From the NCBI GenBank assembly GCA_018992685.1, contig JACVGT010000001.1, positions 62,001 to 126,000 of the forward strand: a stretch of DNA of 64,000 bases. Direction: 5' to 3'. Positions 28,471-39,835 of this stretch are shown in pieces; position 1 is the first letter of the stretch, and each line of letters starts with the position of its first letter. A program made the translations under genes and the position numbers. Source of the DNA: Theionarchaea archaeon (GTDB lineage Archaea; Methanobacteriota_B; Thermococci; Methanofastidiosales; SZ-28-30). The notes beneath the pieces were generated by a model that saw nothing but the letters and a program-made list of their open reading frames with translations, was not told where the DNA came from and searched no databases.

Positions 28471-28516
28471 ACCCCAACCTACTATGTACTGTAACTACTT
28501 TACAGGAGGTGACAGA

Positions 28517-28627
28517 ATGGAGGGATACTCCGGGAAATTCCTCATGAAGATAGAGGAACTGGAAAGAGCTGGAAGTGAGAAAGCTCTAGCAATCTGCTGT
28601 GGCGGATATGGTACTGTAGACCTGTGA
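28517..28627 (+). CDS. Candidate RiPP precursor peptide 1 (36 aa)
   Basis: This tiny gene has its own TATA box and a perfect AGGAGGTG ribosome-binding site 5 nt before the ATG. Its 36-residue product has a charged, probably helical N-terminal half (FLMKIEELERAGSEKA) like a leader, and a C-terminal core-like segment (LAICCGGYGTVDL) with a Cys-Cys pair (27, 28), three glycines and a tyrosine. It is followed by a T-rich stretch and then an ABC-2 export operon. The size, bipartite composition and neighbourhood fit a ribosomally synthesised, modified peptide. No homologue is known to me, and the modified residues are not known. Confidence 0.7.
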   Translation: MEGYSGKFLMKIEELERAGSEKALAICCGGYGTVDL

Positions 28628-28650
28628 TCCACAGTATTCGGGTCTGCCAT

Positions 28651-28670
28651 TATTTTTTTCTTTTCTTTGT
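28651..28670 (+). terminator. T-rich attenuator after peptide gene 1
   Basis: A pyrimidine run (7 T, C, 4 T, C, 3 T) lies between the peptide gene and the ABC ATPase. Archaeal RNA polymerase terminates at such U-tracts without needing a hairpin. Partial read-through would give much peptide mRNA and less transporter mRNA, as is usual for bacteriocin-type operons (inference). Confidence 0.6.
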
Positions 28671-28681
28671 CTGGTGATACG

Positions 28682-29650
28682 ATGGAATACGTCATTGAAA
28701 CAAAAGATTTAGCCCGCGAATTCGATTCTGCAGAAGGCGTTCTCCTCAAGAAAAAGAGAAAAATCATAGCCGTTGATCACGTTACGTTCGGAGTGAGAAA
28801 GGGAGAATTATTCGGTCTCCTGGGCCCCAATGGAGCTGGAAAAACAACCACCATAAAGATGCTCACCACGCTACTTGTTCCCACTGAGGGAGATGCCTAT
28901 GTCCACGGCTGGCACGTGGTGAAAGAGGCGCAGAAGATTCGCAACCACATCAACGTCATATTTGGAGGGGAAAGAGGCTTGTACCTCCGATTGAGTGGAA
29001 AGGATAACCTGCGCTACTTCTCAGATCTCTATGGTGTTCCTGCCACCACACAGAAGGAACGAATCCCTGAACTTCTCCAGCTGGTGGGACTCGCAGAACA
29101 TGGGGAGAGAAAAGTGGAAACATACTCACGAGGCATGAAGCAGAGGTTGCACATTGCAAGGGGATTGATCAATGACCCTTCTATAATTTTCATGGACGAA
29201 CCCACAATTGGACTGGATCCAGAGGGAGCTCGTTCCCTGAGAGCAATCATACAAGGGCTGACTTCCAAGGATAAGACGATTTTCTTGACCACTCACTACA
29301 TGTTTGAGGCTGATGAACTCTGCACCAGGATTGCTCTTCTCAAGGAAGGGAAGATCTTAAAGATTGATACGCCAAAATCCTTCAAGAATGAGGTATCTCA
29401 CGTCACTATCATTGAAGCAGAGGGCCACCACATTCCCCGAGAGCTCATTGATGCATTAGAGGCACGTCAGACCGTACGAATGGTAACCACTTCTCAGCAG
29501 GACATGAACCAGGTCCTTCAGATCCAGACCGAACCCTCAACGGATGTAGTCATGGACATACTCCAGAGCCTGCACACAGCCCGGCTTTCTAACATCCACA
29601 TACGTGAGCCATCACTGGAGGACGCATACATCAAAATAATGCAGGGATAA
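28682..29650 (+). CDS. ABC-2 type transporter ATP-binding protein
   Basis: This is a 322-residue ATPase with Walker A GPNGAGKTTT (residues 48-57), signature YSRGMKQRL (~147), Walker B IIFMDEPT (~165) and switch His in TTHYMFEAD. The C-terminal ~90 residues form the accessory domain usual in DrrA/CcmA-like exporters. ATG 28682 is chosen because GGTGAT lies just before it; the frame extends to a TTG at 28667 inside the T-rich stretch. It forms an exporter with the next two genes, most simply for the peptide encoded at 28517. Confidence 0.93.
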   Translation: MEYVIETKDLAREFDSAEGVLLKKKRKIIAVDHVTFGVRKGELFGLLGPNGAGKTTTIKMLTTLLVPTEGDAYVHGWHVVKEAQKIRNHINVIFGGERGLYLRLSGKDNLRYFSDLYGVPATTQKERIPELLQLVGLAEHGERKVETYSRGMKQRLHIARGLINDPSIIFMDEPTIGLDPEGARSLRAIIQGLTSKDKTIFLTTHYMFEADELCTRIALLKEGKILKIDTPKSFKNEVSHVTIIEAEGHHIPRELIDALEARQTVRMVTTSQQDMNQVLQIQTEPSTDVVMDILQSLHTARLSNIHIREPSLEDAYIKIMQG

Positions 29651-29652
29651 CC

Positions 29653-30429
29653 ATGGGTATGAGAACGATTTTTTCAGCTTCAAGACAGGCATTCTACGAA
29701 TTTCTGGCACGACCAGTATGGATTTTCGAAATGACTGTTTCTCCCTTTGTTTTTGCCACAGTTGCCTTGATCATGTTCAGGGACTCACCCTCAACCAATT
29801 CCACGTATATTGTAATGGCCGGGGGTATTATGGGAATGTGGGGAAGCACCCTCTTGGGTGCGGGTTATTCAGTGGTCATTGAACGATATTTTGGAACTTT
29901 ACAGTACTTGTTCGCCAGTCCCTCCTCCCTGGAAGAAATTATTGCAGGTAAAGCCCTCACCAGTGCCGTCATGGGGCTGTGGAATCTCGTTTTCGTCTTC
30001 CTGATTGCAATCATTCTCTTTGGAGTTGACATAGAGATTGCTCACCCTCTCACTTTCTTACTGGCATTGGGGTTGTGTCTCTTTTCTTTTTCAGCCCTGG
30101 GGATACTCTTGTCCACTCTGTTCGTATTGAGCCGTTCTGCTGCAGCTTTAGGAAATATTCTGGAGTTTGCTGCTTTTGTAGTATGTGGCATCATGTACCC
30201 TATCTCTTTCTTGCCTGTATGGATCCGTCCTCTCTCATACATTCTAACACCCACCTGGGGAGCTCAGGTATTGCGGTGGGCCGTGATAGAACCTCAGTTA
30301 GGGGAAGGGTTCTGGATTGGTGTCGCCATGATTGGTATACTCTCTTGTTCGTACATAGTGATTGGCCACTACCTATACTCCCGGATTGATTATCAGGTGC
30401 GAGTGACAGCCAGTTTGTGGAGGTTTTGA
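29653..30429 (+). CDS. ABC-2 type transporter permease 1
   Basis: This is a 258-residue ABC-2 permease with six predicted membrane helices and the conserved IERYFGTLQYLFASP motif in the first cytoplasmic loop. It starts 2 nt after the ATPase stop. The next gene is a paralogue, so the transporter is probably a heterodimer of two permeases with an ATPase dimer. Confidence 0.9.
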   Translation: MGMRTIFSASRQAFYEFLARPVWIFEMTVSPFVFATVALIMFRDSPSTNSTYIVMAGGIMGMWGSTLLGAGYSVVIERYFGTLQYLFASPSSLEEIIAGKALTSAVMGLWNLVFVFLIAIILFGVDIEIAHPLTFLLALGLCLFSFSALGILLSTLFVLSRSAAALGNILEFAAFVVCGIMYPISFLPVWIRPLSYILTPTWGAQVLRWAVIEPQLGEGFWIGVAMIGILSCSYIVIGHYLYSRIDYQVRVTASLWRF

Positions 30430-30431
30430 TT

Positions 30432-31220
30432 ATGGATGCACTACGGGCAGCCTATAGCAGTGCAGTGTTCTCATACAAGGGGTTACTTACCTGGATAGAG
30501 CCCCGGAACTACATTGGGATGAAATTCATTGTGCCCCTCCTGCAAATGTCATTCTTTGCCTACGTAGCCAAGAATGCTGGAGGAGCAGAAGCCATGTCGT
30601 TCGCTGTGGTCGGCAATATGGTCCAGCTGTGTGCTGTTACATCGGTTCTGGGCATGTCAATGGCGGTGGGAATGGAACGGTATTTTGGCACCTTACCTCT
30701 TCTCCTCGTGAGTCCCACTAACAGGTTTGCCCTGTTTATGGGGCGTTCTGTCGTGTATGTGCTGGACGGGGTTACCAGCACCCTGGTGGGGCTGGCATAT
30801 GCGGTATTCCTTTTTGGTGTAGATTTTTCCCAAGCTAACCCTGTTCTCCTGGTGGTAATCTTTCTTGTTACATCCTTTGCCCTGTCAGGATTTGGACTGT
30901 TGATTGGAAGTCTGTCTTTGTACACGAGAGAAGTTGTGGCTGTGGCCAATGCATCGTATTTTGCTCTGTTAATCGTGTGTGGCGTGAATTTTCCGGTGAC
31001 AGAATTACCTCATGTCCTGCAAGGGCTTTCAAAAGTCCTCCCCTTGACATATGGCATCCAGGCGACACGAGAGGTGGTCCAGGGAGCTTCCTTCACAGAT
31101 GTACAGGGATTGATTGGAGCTGAAATTCTCTTTATGGGTGCCCTCCTCGTCGTTGGTTACTTCTTTTTCAGGTACTTTGAGCAAAAGGCTAAAAAGAAGG
31201 GCACCTTTGAGCTGATCTAG
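30432..31220 (+). CDS. ABC-2 type transporter permease 2
   Basis: This is a 262-residue permease with the same six-helix layout and a matching MERYFGTLPLLLVSP motif, so it is a paralogue of the preceding gene. ATG 30432 lies 2 nt after the previous stop with TGGAGG at usual spacing; an upstream TTG at 30417 would overlap that site. The C-terminus ends in a charged FEQKAKKKG tail. Confidence 0.9.
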   Translation: MDALRAAYSSAVFSYKGLLTWIEPRNYIGMKFIVPLLQMSFFAYVAKNAGGAEAMSFAVVGNMVQLCAVTSVLGMSMAVGMERYFGTLPLLLVSPTNRFALFMGRSVVYVLDGVTSTLVGLAYAVFLFGVDFSQANPVLLVVIFLVTSFALSGFGLLIGSLSLYTREVVAVANASYFALLIVCGVNFPVTELPHVLQGLSKVLPLTYGIQATREVVQGASFTDVQGLIGAEILFMGALLVVGYFFFRYFEQKAKKKGTFELI

Positions 31221-31228
31221 GTGAGTGT

Positions 31229-31804
31229 ATGAAAGTCATGGGTATTGATTGTTCCCAGAAACGGAGAGATTCTACCGGTAGGCATCTCTTGCAGGTCGCA
31301 CTAGAGAAGATAGAATCTTATGCAATTACCACTGATGCCATCAGACTAATTGATTACACGCTGGAGTTGTGCACAGGCTGCAATCAGTGTGTGACAGGAG
31401 GTATGTGCCCCATTGACGATGATTTCGATAGCATCTGTGAAAGGGCTATCCCTGCTGATGCACTCCTTTTTGTGTCTCCAGTGTACTGGGGGAGATATCC
31501 CAGTATTCTGTCGTGCTTTATTGACAGGATGAGGAAGATCACAACAATGCCTCATCCTCTCTACAGGAAGAAGGCAGGCCTCATCGTTCAGACAGGGATC
31601 ACTGATACAGCACTGACTGTGGGCAGTTTTGGCCAGCTGTTCAGGTCGTTCAACATGATCAATGTCGTCGCCGTGGGACTTGGTATGATGGATTATGAGG
31701 GACGCCCATTAGAAGACAAGAATGCAATAGCTCTTGTCCAACTGGTGGGAGAGCGGTTAGTCATGGGACTGCAATCAGAAAAGATCAAAGAGATTTTCGG
31801 ATGA
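31229..31804 (+). CDS. Iron-sulfur flavoprotein (NADPH-dependent FMN reductase family)
   Basis: This is a 191-residue flavodoxin-like protein with a compact cysteine motif CTGCNQCVTGGMC (C-x2-C-x2-C-x5-C, residues ~49-61), as in archaeal and clostridial iron-sulfur flavoproteins that bind FMN and a [4Fe-4S] cluster. VSPVYWGRYPSILSCFIDR is the FMN-binding-loop region. GGTGAG precedes the ATG, 8 nt after the permease gene, so it is the last gene of the peptide/transporter operon. A role as electron donor to the nearby radical SAM enzymes is a reasonable inference. Its last 20 bases overlap the convergent tldE-like gene. Confidence 0.85.
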   Translation: MKVMGIDCSQKRRDSTGRHLLQVALEKIESYAITTDAIRLIDYTLELCTGCNQCVTGGMCPIDDDFDSICERAIPADALLFVSPVYWGRYPSILSCFIDRMRKITTMPHPLYRKKAGLIVQTGITDTALTVGSFGQLFRSFNMINVVAVGLGMMDYEGRPLEDKNAIALVQLVGERLVMGLQSEKIKEIFG

Positions 31805-33020
31805 AGACATAGGGAGTCACCAGTTCTCTGTAGGAGGGGAAAGGGTTTTCTTCTCGTATCCCTGTGCCCTCGATGGATTTCATCAGATCAAAAACATTCC
31901 CCTTCAGAACAAAAGGTGGTACTCTTCCCACAAAGTCTCCTTCTCTAACATAGTAGGCCCGCTTGATGTTAAAAACGTATTCTCCTGAGACAAGGTTTGC
32001 ACCCTTGTCATTGACAACTTCCTCAACAACCACACCAGTAAACTGGCTAAGAGAGTTGCTTCCTTCTTTGACCAGTACATTCCTGGGTCCAATCTTGGGC
32101 GGGGCCATGATTGAGGTGCGTACAGCATTCCCTGTGCTTTCTGTTCCATCAAGAAGCGCATGAAAATGATCATATAAGATGTGGGTCAAGATCCCGTTTT
32201 TTATTATTGGATATCTTCGTGACGGTATTCCCTCACCATCACAGAACGATGTCCTCACTCCTTCAGGGTACAGACCATCATCAAAAAGCGTGAACTCTTC
32301 TCCTGCCACATCTGTGCTACTGGCAATACGGGAAATCCCCCGTTTTACTCTGTCAACACTCACCTGCCAGATCAAGGGACGTAACACTGCATAGAGAGCC
32401 CGTGAACCCAGGGCAATGTGGGAAAATCTATATTCTGCATCCTGCGTGTAGCGGTCAATATACTCCTTGATACATCTCACAAGAGACTCACTGTCTCTAT
32501 CCCACAGCCGGGATGAGTTCACTATGTTGAACGTAGATGTTCCTGCTGATACGTCTATATCCAGCACGAAGAAGGTACTCTTTTCTTCAACATCAAGGCC
32601 TGCAGTCGTTTGCAGTGAGAAAGATGATTCTCTGCAGTATATCAACCCCTTTGAAGAAAGTCCGTGGTCCAAGAGCCCCTCGACGATTTCCATGCAATAG
32701 CCTGTGAGGTCCGTGATGTCAGCCCGCTCTATTTTCGGATCACAAATTCCTTCCACTGAGGGATATTTCTGCACTCCAGGAAACGCTATTTCCCACTGGT
32801 ACTCCGTGTCCAGAGCACGGGCAGACTGGAGAGCCTTCTCAACCTGTTCTGTTGTGTTACACGGCATGTTACAGTAATTGAACCCTACTTTGTTTCCCTT
32901 AATAACCCGGACTGCCTGCCCCGATACCTGCACTTTTTGGGGTGTCATTGTTCTTCCCTGGAACTCTACGATGGTATCGGTATACTTTCCCTGGAAAACC
33001 TCACTCTCACACGTACTCAC
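31785..33020 (-). CDS. tldE: TldE/PmbA-like protease subunit
   Basis: This is a 411-residue member of the TldD/PmbA family. The HExxxH metal motif is absent, identifying it as the non-catalytic TldE-type partner; the C-terminal GGEYVFNIKRAYYVREG-like region and PFVLKGNVFDLMKSIEGTG are typical. It starts at GTG in a GTGA overlap with the tldD stop, showing translational coupling. TldD/TldE is a heteromeric metalloprotease that cuts small unfolded peptides, known from microcin B17 maturation. Here it is embedded in a peptide-modification locus, so leader trimming is the likely job. Confidence 0.88.
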   Translation of the reverse strand: MSTCESEVFQGKYTDTIVEFQGRTMTPQKVQVSGQAVRVIKGNKVGFNYCNMPCNTTEQVEKALQSARALDTEYQWEIAFPGVQKYPSVEGICDPKIERADITDLTGYCMEIVEGLLDHGLSSKGLIYCRESSFSLQTTAGLDVEEKSTFFVLDIDVSAGTSTFNIVNSSRLWDRDSESLVRCIKEYIDRYTQDAEYRFSHIALGSRALYAVLRPLIWQVSVDRVKRGISRIASSTDVAGEEFTLFDDGLYPEGVRTSFCDGEGIPSRRYPIIKNGILTHILYDHFHALLDGTESTGNAVRTSIMAPPKIGPRNVLVKEGSNSLSQFTGVVVEEVVNDKGANLVSGEYVFNIKRAYYVREGDFVGRVPPFVLKGNVFDLMKSIEGTGIREENPFPSYRELVTPYVFIRKSL

Positions 33021-34303
33021 GAAAGCACCTCCACCTCTGAGAATTTCAAGAACGGTGTCAAGCTAGATGATGGAATGAACTGTCGACCCTTTGAGCAGTG
33101 TCTCGTCACGAGTTCCCGTTCTTTTCCCACCCCCTCAAGGTGGGAAAGGATTTCATTCACATTTATTCTCATATTTACGTTACGCACAGAGTATCCCTCT
33201 ACGAGATGGTTCCCAGACTCTGCAACAAGAGACAGAACATCTTGTTCATACTGGAGTTCCGCTGCACCCAGGCTGTCAACAACAATATCAGCTCCTTCAC
33301 ATAGTTCTTCTGTGGATTGATTTCCAGGAAGAACCTGAATATTACTGGTTCGTACCAGGGGTGGACACAGGACACTCTCTGAAAGGGCATTGGCAGTGGG
33401 GTTACACGAGAGAGCACCTGCAGTTTCCCTTGAATGCAGCAAAGAGGTTAAGACGCCTTTTTTAATGACGGGAGTTCCTTCTGCCTTGACACCTTCATCA
33501 TCATAGGAATACTGGCCAAATGCGTTCTCCAGTAACGGGTCATCGATGCATGTGCAATCGTTTGAAGTGATCTCCTCTCCCAGATGGTCAGCCAGCACAC
33601 TCTCCCCTCTCAGCACTTTGTCGGCCTCGAGCCCATGCCCTACGACTTCGTGGATGAGAATTCCAGTAATTTCAGGGGCGAAAACGATGGTGTACTTTCC
33701 TGGGGAAGGCGAACCCACTTTCTTGGGGAATGTGTTCATTTTTTCCTGCAGCTTTCTTATGACCCGCTCCTCTGACAAGAATTCAAGACCATATGGCGCG
33801 ATCAAGAACCCTTCTCGGACGTAGTCTCCCATCAGGGCAAAAATGATTCCTGTGGCTGCTTCCTCTGTTTGAATATGTGATCCCTCCGAATTCTCAAAAA
33901 GGTCCATACTGTAATAGTCATTAAATCCCAGGTAGTAATGGTTAATCAGCGGATTCTCATCAATTCCAGATGATTCTACTAGTGTTCTTATTTCCCTGAT
34001 CTTTTCTTCGATTTCTGTGGTATGAGGAGGATATACTGCCTGCGACGGTTTATCGACGTGGTGGCAAGGACTTTCAGCCAGGACGGCACCCTGAAAGGGG
34101 AGTGATGCCGAGATTTCTTGTGCTCTCTCTATCAAGGTATGGGGGTCAGTTTCCCCCGAACGGGCATAAAACCCCCACCTCCCTGCAGCCAGCACTCGGG
34201 CAGATGCCCCTCGATTGCAGGTAGTGACGCACCGGACAATATGGCCATCCCGTACATCAATGGATGTTCTCCACAGGGTATTTGCTCTCAATTCAACGTG
34301 CAT
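33017..34303 (-). CDS. tldD: TldD-like zinc metalloprotease subunit
   Basis: This is a 428-residue catalytic TldD subunit. The zinc-binding motif is HEVVGH (His218, Glu219, His223) followed by GLEADKV; the conserved DDPLLENAFGQYSYDDEG strand and the REGFL segment are present. GGTGG lies before the ATG, 8 nt after the radical SAM stop. It forms an operon with the radical SAM gene upstream and TldE downstream. The length is normal for archaeal TldD. Confidence 0.9.
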   Translation of the reverse strand: MHVELRANTLWRTSIDVRDGHIVRCVTTCNRGASARVLAAGRWGFYARSGETDPHTLIERAQEISASLPFQGAVLAESPCHHVDKPSQAVYPPHTTEIEEKIREIRTLVESSGIDENPLINHYYLGFNDYYSMDLFENSEGSHIQTEEAATGIIFALMGDYVREGFLIAPYGLEFLSEERVIRKLQEKMNTFPKKVGSPSPGKYTIVFAPEITGILIHEVVGHGLEADKVLRGESVLADHLGEEITSNDCTCIDDPLLENAFGQYSYDDEGVKAEGTPVIKKGVLTSLLHSRETAGALSCNPTANALSESVLCPPLVRTSNIQVLPGNQSTEELCEGADIVVDSLGAAELQYEQDVLSLVAESGNHLVEGYSVRNVNMRINVNEILSHLEGVGKERELVTRHCSKGRQFIPSSSLTPFLKFSEVEVLS

Positions 34304-34311
34304 AAATCCAC

Positions 34312-35400
34312 CTATGGGTACCTGCAGTCCTTCTCTGGGTCTATCAAAGCATATTCAGGAAATTTCCCGATATGATAGAAGGCCTGGCACATGGGGTAAG
34401 GAGCCAGAAGATCACCAAACTCAGCAAATGCCATGGCTCTGCAGAACCCGCCACAAATCCTGGCAGCATGACAGTTACCACACACACCTTTCAGGCTGGT
34501 TTTATTGGACTGATCCAGTATTTTGAACATGGGGTGTCTCTTTATTTCCTCAAACGTATTGATGCGCAGGTTTCCAGCTTTCATGTCAGGATGAAGTGAT
34601 AACGCTGTACATAGGCTGACATCTCCCTGGGGGGATACTCCCATGAGTTTCCACCACGGGCAGGTCACATACTCTTGGACATCGTCAATATTCTCTGCAG
34701 GCATCAACGCCAAGGGTAAATCTGTGATGATCCTCAGATCGTCGAGGTACTTTGCTTTTAGGTGAAAATAGGCTTGGAGCGTCTTTTCCACCAAGGTGAC
34801 ATCGGTGGGCTTTTCACCAGATCTACCAAGGGGAACAGTCTGCGCAAGAATTCGAAAAATGCTACATTCAGTTTCAATGCCAAGAGTGATAATCTCCTCT
34901 AACTGAGGAAGGTTTTCATGAGTGACATACGTGGAAATGCCGTGGTCAATATCATATTCTTGCAATAGATTCAGCCCGTTAACAGCTCTTTCAAAGGCAC
35001 CAGGACGCCCACGCTGGGCATCGTGGACGTGACCAATACCATCAATGCTCACCCCCACAGATGCATTCTTGTACTGGCTGAGCAACTGGGCAATTCCTGG
35101 TGTAATTAACGTCCCATTTGTTTCTAAGTTGAGGAGGACACCGCGTTCCAAGACGATGGTGAGTATTTCTTTGATATCTTTCCGTGCAAGAGGTTCTCCG
35201 CCTGTTATTGACACTTCAGCTAATTTGCCGTCTGATGCAACTGTGTCGATGATTGAAGCGACTTCTGCAGGCGTAATTTCATTTTCGAATGCTTTTCCAG
35301 GTCCTGCTTCCAGATAGCAGTGTTTACACGCCAGGTTACACTCTCTCGTCACAACAACATACAATCGGGAAAAGACTTTACCATTTCCAGGGGATTCCAT
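34312..35400 (-). CDS. Radical SAM/SPASM peptide maturase 2
   Basis: This is a 362-residue radical SAM enzyme with the cluster motif CNLACKHC (Cys21, 25, 28), ITGGEPLARKD and a C-terminal SPASM domain (CPWWKLMGVSPQGDVSLC, then CGNCHAARICGGFCRA and a final Cys). Such enzymes make thioether, C-C or other crosslinks in peptides, or act on haem or cofactor precursors. No PqqD domain is fused. A CTTTTAA box about 25-27 nt before the ATG (35424-35431) shows that it has its own leaderless promoter, so it, tldD and tldE can be transcribed apart from the upstream pair. Confidence 0.9.
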   Translation of the reverse strand: MESPGNGKVFSRLYVVVTRECNLACKHCYLEAGPGKAFENEITPAEVASIIDTVASDGKLAEVSITGGEPLARKDIKEILTIVLERGVLLNLETNGTLITPGIAQLLSQYKNASVGVSIDGIGHVHDAQRGRPGAFERAVNGLNLLQEYDIDHGISTYVTHENLPQLEEIITLGIETECSIFRILAQTVPLGRSGEKPTDVTLVEKTLQAYFHLKAKYLDDLRIITDLPLALMPAENIDDVQEYVTCPWWKLMGVSPQGDVSLCTALSLHPDMKAGNLRINTFEEIKRHPMFKILDQSNKTSLKGVCGNCHAARICGGFCRAMAFAEFGDLLAPYPMCQAFYHIGKFPEYALIDPEKDCRYP

Positions 35401-35547
35401 GAGAGAGACTCAATCCCGTAAGGTTAAAAGGTTATCTATAGTAAGGGTTGGAATAGAGAAGGAACGCAATGATATTTTAGGATGCTACTCCTTCACGGGG
35501 GTGTTACTCCTTCTCTGTTCCCTTCTTGTCATGATATTCAGCCTCCC

Positions 35548-36717
35548 TCAGCCCTGCCTGCGCTGTCTCAGAACTGATCGGACCAGCAATACTGCATTGA
35601 TACACAAGATTCCCAAGAATACAATGCTGTCATATGATGTTCTGACCTCTCCAGAGACTCTGGAAAGAGTTCCCACAATTCGTGGAACAACATAAGAGAG
35701 AAGAAACAATGCAGCGGCGATATTCCCGAGCACGAACACCACAGAGTACCCTCTAACGATACGCATCTCACGTTCCGGCACAGCAGAAAGGTCGTGGTAT
35801 GAAAAACGATCCCAGACTCTGTGTAATTTGTTGCCCAGAAAAGCCACCGTATCTCCAAAGAGATTCTTACAGTTGAAGTAGTTGGTGATAATGTAGTAGA
35901 CGTCAGTCTGCATAAAAAAGAGACACTGCCACAACGTGGAAATTAACTGCAAAAGGATGAAGGCCTTCAAAAATCTCAGGGCAACGTTATCCGACTCCCG
36001 GAAGATCCACATGATGATGAGAACCAGAGAAACAGTCACCAGGTCCGAAAGTATTCCCGCGAAGTACACCCTGTACCTCTTCTCTGCCGGCACTGTCCAT
36101 ACAGAGGTTATATCAGTTTCTGCCACGACAAAGTATAATCGATGGCTGATACGGAACTGGGCGTCCAGTCCTAAAGACTTTGCTGCTGCCAGATGGTAAA
36201 ACTCGTGCTTGAACACAAAGAGCCAGCTCACTGCAAAAGTAGTCAGCAATGCAACCGTATACGAGTCCACAAACATGAAGTCACCGAATTTGGGAAAGAA
36301 CTGGGGGGTTGTCAGAAGGATCATTCCCCCTAGAACCATTACTAGCGTATAAAAAACGTATGCTGGCTTTGAGAAAAGTATTTGGGCTTGTTCCGGTTTT
36401 AAATTTTCAAAGTATGCATGAATTTCCTCATGTTCAGTTTCGATCAGTTCATCATCAATTTTCTGGACGAATCCTACTTCTATCAGGCTTTCTATGAACT
36501 CTTCAAGTTCTACTTCTTCCCTGAATTTCTCTTCCAGGTTCTTTCTGGCTTCTCCTATAGTCAATCCCTTCTTGAGCAGGTTAATAGCTTCTACACCCAC
36601 CTCGGGTAGACTGATGAAAGAACCAATTTCCCTTCTGCCTACAATCCATTCTCCTTCCTGCAGACTCATGTCCAGAGGGTAGAATGTGATCACAGAATCC
36701 TTTTGCATGCCAGTCAC
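35548..36717 (-). CDS. M50-like membrane metalloprotease with N-terminal PqqD-like domain
   Basis: This is a 389-residue polytopic protein. Residues ~10-90 look like a PqqD-type winged-helix recognition domain. Membrane helices begin at ~118, and KHEFYHLAAAKSLG holds the zinc motif (His171, Glu172, His175). A later stretch (SVWTVPAEKRYRVYFAGILSDL) matches the M50/site-2-protease-like 'peptide zinc metalloprotease' family seen beside radical SAM enzymes (YydH type). It starts at GTG inside a GTGA overlap with the radical SAM stop, so the two are coupled. Probably it processes or exports the modified peptide at the membrane. Confidence 0.85.
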   Translation of the reverse strand: MTGMQKDSVITFYPLDMSLQEGEWIVGRREIGSFISLPEVGVEAINLLKKGLTIGEARKNLEEKFREEVELEEFIESLIEVGFVQKIDDELIETEHEEIHAYFENLKPEQAQILFSKPAYVFYTLVMVLGGMILLTTPQFFPKFGDFMFVDSYTVALLTTFAVSWLFVFKHEFYHLAAAKSLGLDAQFRISHRLYFVVAETDITSVWTVPAEKRYRVYFAGILSDLVTVSLVLIIMWIFRESDNVALRFLKAFILLQLISTLWQCLFFMQTDVYYIITNYFNCKNLFGDTVAFLGNKLHRVWDRFSYHDLSAVPEREMRIVRGYSVVFVLGNIAAALFLLSYVVPRIVGTLSRVSGEVRTSYDSIVFLGILCINAVLLVRSVLRQRRQG

Positions 36718-38024
36718 TCAATCAACTCCAGGACTTCTCTTTTCGTTTCCTCATCTCCCCTTTTCAGCAGTTCTTTGATGATCAAGGCGGTAGCTGGGCA
36801 CCGGTAGGGATCTTTCTTGTAAAGAGTCTGATGATATGCAAGAGCATGACCCCTGCACCCCCCGCCGCAGAAGAATCTATGCTTACAGGTCTTGCAGGGT
36901 TCGACTTTATGCACATTCAAGCTGTACAACTCCTGAAGCACTTCTGAATGCTTCCAGATTTCCCGCAGTGTGGACTTTGTGATATTTCCCAGCCTTAATG
37001 ATTCATATTTGGTGAGCATACAGGGGTATACATCTCCTGCTGGCGTTATCACAGGGGACGTTCCAATGGAACACCGTTCTCTGGGGACTACCAGCATGCT
37101 GATTTCTCCCTCGTCTGTTTCATGGGTATAGCAGAAATGCTCACACATTTGCTGAGGAGTCAGTAACAATGCGCTGTTGAATCCCCTCCCTGTGGGAGAA
37201 ACGTTCGCACTGCTGAGAGGGACTCCCAGTTCTTGTCCTAACCTATAAAGAGCATCCAGTTCATGAAAATTCTCCCTGGTGAGCACAGAACTGATAGAGA
37301 CATCAATATCGACTTCCTTCAAAGCCCTCATACCCTGTATTGCTTTCTTGAATCCTCCCTTCATCCCTCTGATAGCATCATGAGTCTCTGGATTGGCTCC
37401 ATCAAGACTTACCTGAACACTGTGGATTCCCGCTTCTTTGAGCTGGTGAGCGACCGTTCGATTGATCAATGTGCCATTGGTTAGGAGGTTAGGCTTCAAC
37501 CCTGCAGCATTCACCTTTCTTATCATGTGTAAGGTCAGATCTTTCTTGAGCAGAGGTTCGCCCCCCGTGATGGTAACAGGAGTAACCTGCAATGAGATGG
37601 CCTCATCCAGCACCCTGTCAATCTCCTCTTTATTGAGTTCATTGTGGTCGGGAGCTCCTGCACTGGAAGCACAGAATTTGCAGTGCTCATTGCACCGGTA
37701 CGTGACTTCAATATTGAGAGATGAAGGGCAGCTATAGTCATAAACAGGTTTTATGAAAGAGGGGGTCTGGCAGAGGGCCAGGATATTTTCATGTTCCAAA
37801 TACTCCATGAAAGGAGTGACAGCTTTTTCAACATCTCCTGGCGATTCACCATACTGCTCCGACAGAATACGTATCAAATCCTCATACGTGTGGGTGCCAT
37901 CACACAGCTGCAGGACTGCCTGGGCAGTTTCATCAACTCTGAAGATAGCCGAATCCAGCAGCAAGTAGTTACCTTTGCTGGTATTCCTGATAAATACCTG
38001 ATCTCTCACTCGTATGTACGCCAT
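36714..38024 (-). CDS. Radical SAM/SPASM peptide maturase 1 with N-terminal PqqD domain
   Basis: This is a 436-residue protein. Residues 1-85 form a PqqD-like RiPP recognition element (LLLDSAIFRVDETAQAVLQL, YEDLIRILSEQYG), the module that binds precursor leaders. The radical SAM core has CNEHCKFC (Cys111, 115, 118) and TITGGEPLLKKD. The SPASM domain has CSIGTSPVITPAGDVYPC, CKTCKHRFFCGGGCRGHA and a last Cys, enough for two auxiliary [4Fe-4S] clusters. AGAGGTGATAG lies before the ATG. It is the first large gene after the 29-aa peptide gene on the same strand. Confidence 0.92.
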   Translation of the reverse strand: MAYIRVRDQVFIRNTSKGNYLLLDSAIFRVDETAQAVLQLCDGTHTYEDLIRILSEQYGESPGDVEKAVTPFMEYLEHENILALCQTPSFIKPVYDYSCPSSLNIEVTYRCNEHCKFCASSAGAPDHNELNKEEIDRVLDEAISLQVTPVTITGGEPLLKKDLTLHMIRKVNAAGLKPNLLTNGTLINRTVAHQLKEAGIHSVQVSLDGANPETHDAIRGMKGGFKKAIQGMRALKEVDIDVSISSVLTRENFHELDALYRLGQELGVPLSSANVSPTGRGFNSALLLTPQQMCEHFCYTHETDEGEISMLVVPRERCSIGTSPVITPAGDVYPCMLTKYESLRLGNITKSTLREIWKHSEVLQELYSLNVHKVEPCKTCKHRFFCGGGCRGHALAYHQTLYKKDPYRCPATALIIKELLKRGDEETKREVLELIE

Positions 38025-38359
38025 TCTATCACCTCTTGGGAGAAGGGAAGTACCTCCATGCAGTCGAGTCTTGTCTGCTCCAGATTTAACATGGGGCTAC
38101 GCGGGCTGTCTGCCTTTTTCCTGATTTTCTGATAGATATGAATTTCGTCTTACACCCTCTCTCTTCTGATTGATGAAATATACTCAATGGTTAGTTATTT
38201 GAATCTATGCTCTGAAAGATGTAACAATACCATCTCCTGCGCGTGCCGCCCAACCTTACCAGTTAAAAATCACCTGCAGTGAACCCCCAAAGCATCTTCT
38301 CTCATCATTATGTAATGGTTTTGACTCAAAAAAAAGAAAGATCAAAAAAAACGAGAGTT
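38025..38359. other. Region between peptide gene 2 and its maturase
   Basis: This is 335 nt without a recognised gene. At the right end are two U-tracts of the peptide-2 transcript; at the left end is the ribosome-binding site of the radical SAM gene. No strong TATA box was found for the maturase, so it is probably expressed by read-through from the peptide promoter (inference). Confidence 0.5.
38328..38351 (-). terminator. Double U-tract terminator after peptide gene 2
   Basis: Reading the minus strand, two runs of eight T separated by a short GATCTTTC-type spacer begin about 9 nt after the peptide stop codon. This is a strong archaeal termination signal, placed as the attenuator after peptide gene 1 is. 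Confidence 0.75.
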
Positions 38360-38449
38360 TTAGAGACAGACCATCTTGGATTCCTTCCATACGTTGTCAG
38401 TGAAGGCTGTGGTCTTTTTCTTTTCAAGCTTTCTGACGGCAATTGACAT
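38360..38449 (-). CDS. Candidate RiPP precursor peptide 2 (29 aa)
   Basis: This tiny gene has a full AAAGGAGGTG ribosome-binding site before its ATG, its own CTTAAATA promoter and a double U-tract terminator, so it is built to be strongly and separately expressed. The 29-residue product has a basic N-terminal part (VRKLEKKK) and a C-terminal part TAFTDNVWKESKMVCL with one Trp and one Cys near the end. The next large gene on this strand is the PqqD-fused radical SAM enzyme. These facts fit a precursor peptide; no homologue is known to me, and the modification (for example a Cys or Trp crosslink) cannot be deduced. Confidence 0.7.
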   Translation of the reverse strand: MSIAVRKLEKKKTTAFTDNVWKESKMVCL

Positions 38450-38494
38450 GGTTTACACCTCCTTTGGTTGGATGTGGGCTCTTCTCGTTATGAG

Positions 38495-38502
38495 TATTTA
38501 AG
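38495..38502 (-). promoter_or_regulatory. TATA box of peptide gene 2
   Basis: CTTAAATA on the minus strand predicts transcription from about 38473, giving a leader of about 24 nt, the same length as for peptide gene 1. Confidence 0.65.
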
Positions 38503-39730: not shown

Positions 39731-39835
39731 TTACTTCTTTATTGCCAGTTTTGCACCACAAACGGAGCATGTTCCCTTTTCTGTAATCGTCGGGGCGTTG
39801 TCTAGGGTAGCTCCACAGAGTCCACATTTAGCCAT
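39731..39835 (-). CDS. Tiny zinc-ribbon protein (34 aa)
   Basis: This 34-residue protein consists of one zinc ribbon: CGLCGATL near the N-terminus and CSVCGAKLAIKK at the end. AAGGTGAT lies at correct spacing before the ATG (39835). Small stand-alone ribbons of this sort are common in archaea; partners are unknown. Confidence 0.7.
   Translation of the reverse strand: MAKCGLCGATLDNAPTITEKGTCSVCGAKLAIKK

Follow-up and report, generated by a model that had tools for sequence, protein, structure and literature searches.

A conserved short precursor linked to a PqqD-radical SAM maturase and an M50-type protease: a probable RiPP pathway in Theionarchaea

The DNA described here comes from a little-known archaeon of sediment, and to our knowledge few ribosomally synthesised and post-translationally modified peptides (RiPPs) of archaea have been characterised. 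Here, we describe a gene cluster of 10 kb from a Theionarchaea genome (3.03 Mb, 45 contigs), lying in the window, i.e. the whole stretch of 64,000 nucleotides (nt) that was analysed (C7:62001-126000). A 29-residue open reading frame (ORF) of this cluster very probably encodes a real RiPP precursor. Together with a maturase in which a PqqD-type RiPP recognition element (RRE) is fused to a radical S-adenosylmethionine (SAM)/SPASM enzyme (rSAM1), and a membrane M50-type protease with a predicted RRE of its own (RRE-M50), it forms a conserved core that is probably a radical SAM RiPP pathway. The features of this core, with their positions in the window and the basis of each assignment, are as follows.

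38360..38449, minus strand: 29-residue precursor peptide MSIAVRKLEKKKTTAFTDNVWKESKMVCL, with leader at about residues 1-14 and conserved tail W-x-E-x-K-x-x-C-L (homologues, substitution rates, coding score, tail motif)
38457..38466, minus strand: Shine-Dalgarno (SD) sequence AAAGGAGGTG of the 29-residue gene (sequence, SD count)
38495..38502, minus strand: putative TATA-like box CTTAAATA of the same gene (sequence)
38324..38358, minus strand: T-rich tract directly 3' of the gene, likely a (leaky) terminator (sequence)
36714..38024, minus strand: rSAM1, RRE (PqqD) fused to a radical SAM/SPASM maturase (Pfam, tree, structure search)
35548..36717, minus strand: membrane M50-type protease with N-terminal RRE (alignment, AlphaFold2 (AF2) model, bacterial relatives)

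Paralogous loci were scanned for short ORFs with an SD sequence, and a profile was built from the peptides of contigs C7, C3 and C19. Four homologues of the 29-residue peptide were observed, at paralogous loci in the source genome and in a Theionarchaea congener. Behind the C3 relative (MKFNVRKLETVSTTVAAADDVVPWKEAKLQCL) come three PqqD-radical SAM genes and one RRE-M50 gene, behind the C19 relative (MKFNVKKVESISTTAVAPAAKNPWKETKMQCL) one gene of each kind. The profile search of the congener gave two further relatives: MKFNVKKVETVSTTAMAIVDDAGGPWMESKNQCL, after which two radical SAM genes come next, and MKFNVKKVESVSTTAVAPAAKNPWKETKAQCL, which lies near the end of contig C133 and would adjoin the radical SAM and M50 genes that open contig C120. 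Each of the five precursors is linked to PqqD-radical SAM genes, and most of them to an RRE-M50 gene as well. Profile E-values ranged from 1e-13 to 1e-21 within the two Theionarchaea genomes; the same profile, run on 113 other genomes of the phylum, gave a best E-value of only 0.0185.

The precursors of this family are 29-34 residues long, with a leader of the form M-x3-V-[RK]-K-[LV]-E-x3-T-T and a core that ends in W-x-E-x-K-x-x-C-L; eleven columns are invariant across the five peptides (M1, V5, K7, E9, T13, T14, W21, E23, K25, C28 and L29). In the closest pair, the C19 peptide and MKFNVKKVESVSTTAVAPAAKNPWKETKAQCL, 10 codons differ synonymously and 2 nonsynonymously (dN 0.046, dS 1.0), and for the family a dN/dS of about 0.05 was obtained, which indicates purifying selection. 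A preliminary description of this DNA had proposed the 29-residue ORF as a precursor, a proposal supported by its retention at related loci under such selection. A DNA pattern of the tail was matched three times in 3.0 Mb, always at a precursor locus, and the control gave no match. Each precursor gene shown combines a TATA-like box with an SD of 8-9 nt and, past the stop codon, a T-rich tract; this layout would yield more peptide than enzyme.

The gene order proposed earlier was confirmed for every gene in position and frame, and its family names agree with Pfam. The cluster comprises two convergent gene sets whose 3' ends overlap by 20 nt, and the plus-strand set is headed by a second short ORF, of 36 residues. 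Both short ORFs have the TATA-like box and SD sequence that had been claimed for them, and each is followed by a T-rich tract. An SD of at least 7 nt ahead of an ATG was counted 14 times in the 64-kb window (one case being a counting artefact of the window edge), and both ORFs are among these cases. Their codon scores were 0.142 (36 residues) and 0.145 (29 residues); of 1,098 spurious short ORFs, 0.6% scored as high. Because of these rare strong SDs and the codon scores, both ORFs stand above chance. Neither peptide matched any Pfam or NCBIfam model.

In rSAM1, Pfam detected PqqD (E 1.6e-9), Radical_SAM (3.5e-30) and SPASM (2.8e-11). In the tree, the maturases encoded at the five precursor loci fall in one clade of eight (support 98/98) with two supported subtypes, inside which rSAM1 stands alone, its identity to the third C3 maturase being 42%. 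A scan of genome contigs with the rSAM1 protein alone gave no match.

The M50 assignment is weak by sequence alone (no Pfam M50 match; PqqD at E 0.067), but it is borne out by relatives and structure. HExxH (H171, E172, H175) and an Asp further downstream (D272) do not vary across ten relatives from archaea and bacteria, and a Peptidase_M50 match is present in relatives of the protein. In the AF2 model, residues 8-86 adopt an RRE fold, superposing on a leader-bound lasso B1 protein with Z 10.7 and 2.0 Å over 79 residues, and the N-terminus aligned with PqqD at Z 9.2. Foldseek matches of the model had E-values that were not significant, with ion-channel rows representing helix-bundle matches, and only the RRE part was used. 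An alignment scan of genome contigs with two short patterns of the protease matched only the Theionarchaea congener, a search too narrow to show its absence from other phyla. The RiPP-type character that had been assigned to the locus is upheld by the linkage of a conserved short precursor to modifying enzymes, with RREs recognised by Pfam in rSAM1 and by fold in the M50 model.

We propose that the RREs of rSAM1 and of the protease would bind the leader, that rSAM1 would modify the conserved core tail, and that the membrane zinc protease would probably then cleave the peptide in or after the TT region. In the tail, K follows W at a distance of four residues and the Cys is penultimate; rSAM1 would most likely cross-link residues from the invariant set of Trp, Glu, Lys and Cys. 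M50 proteases are known from RiPP pathways, as EpeP, TglG and TmoG (PMC10885120). Several points weigh against this interpretation: the product, the transcript and the binding of the leader are predictions; the M50 model is of low confidence past the RRE (mean pLDDT 60.8); among the five precursors, that of C7 diverges most; and the archaeal precursor family was found in only two genomes, both of one genus.

The remaining genes of the cluster are these.

28517..28627, plus strand: 36-residue ORF MEGYSGKFLMKIEELERAGSEKALAICCGGYGTVDL, candidate second precursor (coding score, SD, layout of TATA box, SD and T-tract)
28504..28512, plus strand: SD sequence AGGAGGTGA of the 36-residue ORF (sequence, SD count)
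28682..29650, plus strand: ATP-binding cassette (ABC) ATPase, DrrA-like (family searches)
29653..30429, plus strand: first ABC-2 permease (Pfam)
30432..31220, plus strand: second ABC-2 permease (Pfam, run on 30417-31220)
31229..31804, plus strand: iron-sulfur flavoprotein, FMN_red with C-x2-C-x2-C-x5-C (Pfam; motif from the sequence)
34312..35400, minus strand: rSAM2, second radical SAM/SPASM enzyme, without RRE (Pfam, tree, gap sequence, structure search)
33017..34303, minus strand: TldD-like metalloprotease with conserved HExxxH (Pfam; aligned with Escherichia coli TldD, 5nj5)
31785..33020, minus strand: TldE/PmbA-like partner (Pfam; compared with TldD)

No HExxxH motif was seen in the TldE-like partner, which is probably inactive since the motif is missing. 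Both rSAM1 and rSAM2 carry CxxxCxxC and SPASM cluster motifs by Pfam and by sequence. The second SPASM enzyme, TldD/E, the ABC exporter and the flavoprotein could complete the maturation and export of the 29-residue product, or they could act on a second peptide, the 36-residue one. The preliminary description had joined two maturases, two proteases and the exporter in a single pathway. Such a unit is not supported, as the conserved module consists of the precursor, the PqqD-radical SAM enzyme and the RRE-M50 protease: the paralogous loci are without TldD/E, without a SPASM enzyme of the second type and without an ABC exporter, so these genes may be a separate unit.

Accordingly, the cluster may hold two adjacent but independent pathways, one consisting of the 29-residue peptide, rSAM1 and RRE-M50, the other of a 36-residue Cys peptide, rSAM2, TldD/E, the ABC exporter and the flavoprotein, with a sactipeptide-like secreted product. 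This is a serious possibility, to which we give nearly even credence. The first module stands without the second gene set at C3 and C19, and rSAM2 is preceded by a gap of 147 nt with no SD, where a separate leaderless unit possibly starts. In the tree rSAM2 falls outside the rSAM1 clade, and its closest solved structure is the sactipeptide maturase SkfB (E 1.1e-20). Its closest relative in the congener (35%) is the second of two radical SAM genes behind a Cys-containing ORF of 41 residues with a 9-nt SD (L109:6121-6246), which fits a Cys-peptide substrate but is no proof of one. The 36-residue ORF looks translated, its codon score being as high as those of confirmed precursors, and it is a candidate second precursor. 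On the other hand, no homologue of it was found in either of the two Theionarchaea genomes, rSAM2 has no RRE, and the two gene sets are linked only by lying adjacent and convergent. Ahead of the nearest ABC paralogue (C17, 46%), no peptide resembling the 36-residue one was found with an SD of at least 5 nt, and in a synteny comparison the gene flanking the locus was absent from the congener.

That all genes, with both peptides, both maturases, both protease types and the exporter, would act in one combined pathway towards a single product is suggested by their clustering within 10 kb and by the 20-nt overlap of the 3' ends. We consider it rather unlikely, as the core module occurs alone at C3 and C19 and the extra genes occur at no paralogous locus.

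The pyrroloquinoline quinone (PQQ) and mycofactocin pathways likewise combine a PqqD-type domain, a SPASM radical SAM enzyme and a small precursor with a conserved tail, and both cofactors are cut from the tails of their precursor peptides. The closest solved structure to rSAM1 is PqqE (E 2.5e-24). Against the PqqE equivalog TIGR02109, however, rSAM1 scored 145 bits (cut-off 381), and against the MftC equivalog TIGR03962, 167 bits (cut-off 265); lying far below both cut-offs, the locus is neither a PQQ nor a mycofactocin locus. An intracellular redox cofactor excised from the conserved tail, rather than a secreted peptide, might still be the product: the C3 and C19 loci are without an exporter, the terminus is fixed as W-x-E-x-K-x-x-C-L, and scaffold peptides can lose C-terminal residues to certain M50 proteases (PMC10885120). 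We regard this as unlikely, for besides the equivalog scores no dependent dehydrogenase was identified, and a membrane protease would suit export too. Finally, chance short ORFs being common, the two ORFs might not be genes at all and the radical SAM enzymes might be ordinary ones with other substrates, a very improbable explanation that is contradicted for the 29-residue ORF by the dN/dS of about 0.05 and by the set of five homologues, together with the coding scores and the SD statistics.

The reach of the RRE-M50 protease into other phyla was followed with short patterns, plasmids and viral contigs. Viral contigs gave no match. In a tblastn search of plasmids, proteins with 26-31% identity, most of them over at least 70% of the length, were found in Streptomyces, Nonomuraea, Nocardia, Actinacidiphila and Priestia, with a weaker one in Macrococcus. 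In the annotated records examined, the usual neighbour of the bacterial M50 gene encodes a ThiF-family enzyme, whose closest solved structures are MccB and, for the N-terminal part, PaaA. Short ORFs (1,535) were then scored with a matrix built from the archaeal leaders alone. The highest scores went to peptides beside these M50 genes: VKIRKLEKIETTIN (Nonomuraea), ISIRRLDKKETTGL (Nocardia) and IGFRRLERVETTNS (Actinacidiphila), and IEIRMLDKLETTAV, IKVRKVEDVKATGL and ISVRRTEPIKVTSA in Streptomyces. All six of the best distinct matches adjoin an M50 gene, a result to be compared with at most four of the top eight for 200 column-shuffled matrices. One Streptomyces locus (L105:5494-7000) has a leader-bearing peptide and the M50 gene without ThiF, beside a tetratricopeptide-repeat protein. 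The Priestia peptides, three identical copies of MKKIVVRKLATVTVPQLRPGT, had a lower leader score. On that plasmid (L094:5072-5348) they are three tandem 21-residue genes preceding an RRE-ThiF gene, and genes annotated as ABC substrate-binding lie alongside. No leader-bearing peptide was seen at the Macrococcus M50 locus. An Anoxybacillus thiocillin cluster, which gave a weak M50 match, was set aside, as its precursors lack the leader motif.

Since the peptides beside most bacterial relatives bear an archaeal-type leader, leader and RRE-M50 look like a cross-domain cassette with varied chemistries. In this plasmid-borne sample, the shared leader may reflect common descent, transfer or convergence alike. 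We tentatively suggest, with slightly less than even confidence, that leader and RRE-M50 form a portable maturation cassette of archaea and bacteria, onto which unrelated chemistries would have been exchanged: Theionarchaea would use SPASM radical SAM enzymes, and actinobacteria and Bacillota adenylation of the ThiF type. The archaeal product would then be a novel short peptide with cross-linking among its W, E, K and C residues.

As a probable RiPP pathway that combines SPASM enzymes with an M50 protease, the locus is of a kind already known. The epipeptide locus of Bacillus subtilis, yydFGHIJ (epeXEPAB), likewise has a small precursor, a radical SAM enzyme, a membrane M50 protease and ABC genes (PMC10885120). 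The archaeal locus differs from it by a maturase that is a SPASM protein fused to an RRE, by an RRE on the protease, by an apparently different leader and tail and by the additional TldD/E; elsewhere in the genome, its core module occurs without ABC genes. Among actinobacteria and Bacillota, ThiF-type (MccB/PaaA-like) RiPP loci have a homologous RRE-M50, 27-31% identical along most of the protein, and the common leader motif; in contrast, their modifying enzyme is an adenylyltransferase and not a radical SAM enzyme, the cores are unrelated, and Pfam found no ThiF among the archaeal locus genes. In pearlins and microcin B17, scaffold or leader is stripped by M50 (TglG, TmoG) or TldD/E proteases (PMC10885120), whereas the window locus holds both protease types together; neither a LanB-like peptide aminoacyl-tRNA ligase (PEARL) nor a cyclodehydratase was found among its genes by Pfam. 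The earlier remark that the layout was unfamiliar is fair for the C7 arrangement, but the RRE-M50 is part of a wider family with members in bacteria.

The source genome is rich in RiPP-type loci of similar make-up: its 3.0 Mb contain 46 matches to a PqqD-radical SAM query, 19 to PqqD and 15 of the TldD/E type. On contig C3 (L054:10212-10352), a 46-residue ORF, MINVPMVFEGPALLANTMVPLGRGTNVCCYNDTDGDYYCCIKTEVL, with an 8-nt SD lies just ahead of radical SAM genes and is likely another precursor. On contig C17 (L012:5219-5311), a 30-residue ORF, MKYVEPEVFEFAEESITDKCLAMWATFTPT, with a 9-nt SD precedes a PqqD-radical SAM gene, and TldD/E-like genes are located just upstream. In the window itself, a 34-residue ORF at 39731-39835, MAKCGLCGATLDNAPTITEKGTCSVCGAKLAIKK, has two CxxC pairs behind a good SD, and possibly encodes a small zinc protein.

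Literature searches gave nothing on radical SAM RiPPs of Theionarchaea, and no paper linking M50, ThiF, radical SAM and the leader described here. What is new is the precursor family, its occurrence in Theionarchaea and the leader that it has in common with ThiF-type bacterial loci. The clear invariant residues of the family allow in vitro testing, and the shared leader motif provides a sequence handle for RRE-M50 pathways that profile libraries miss; it also makes the exchange of leader and protease between chemistries testable.

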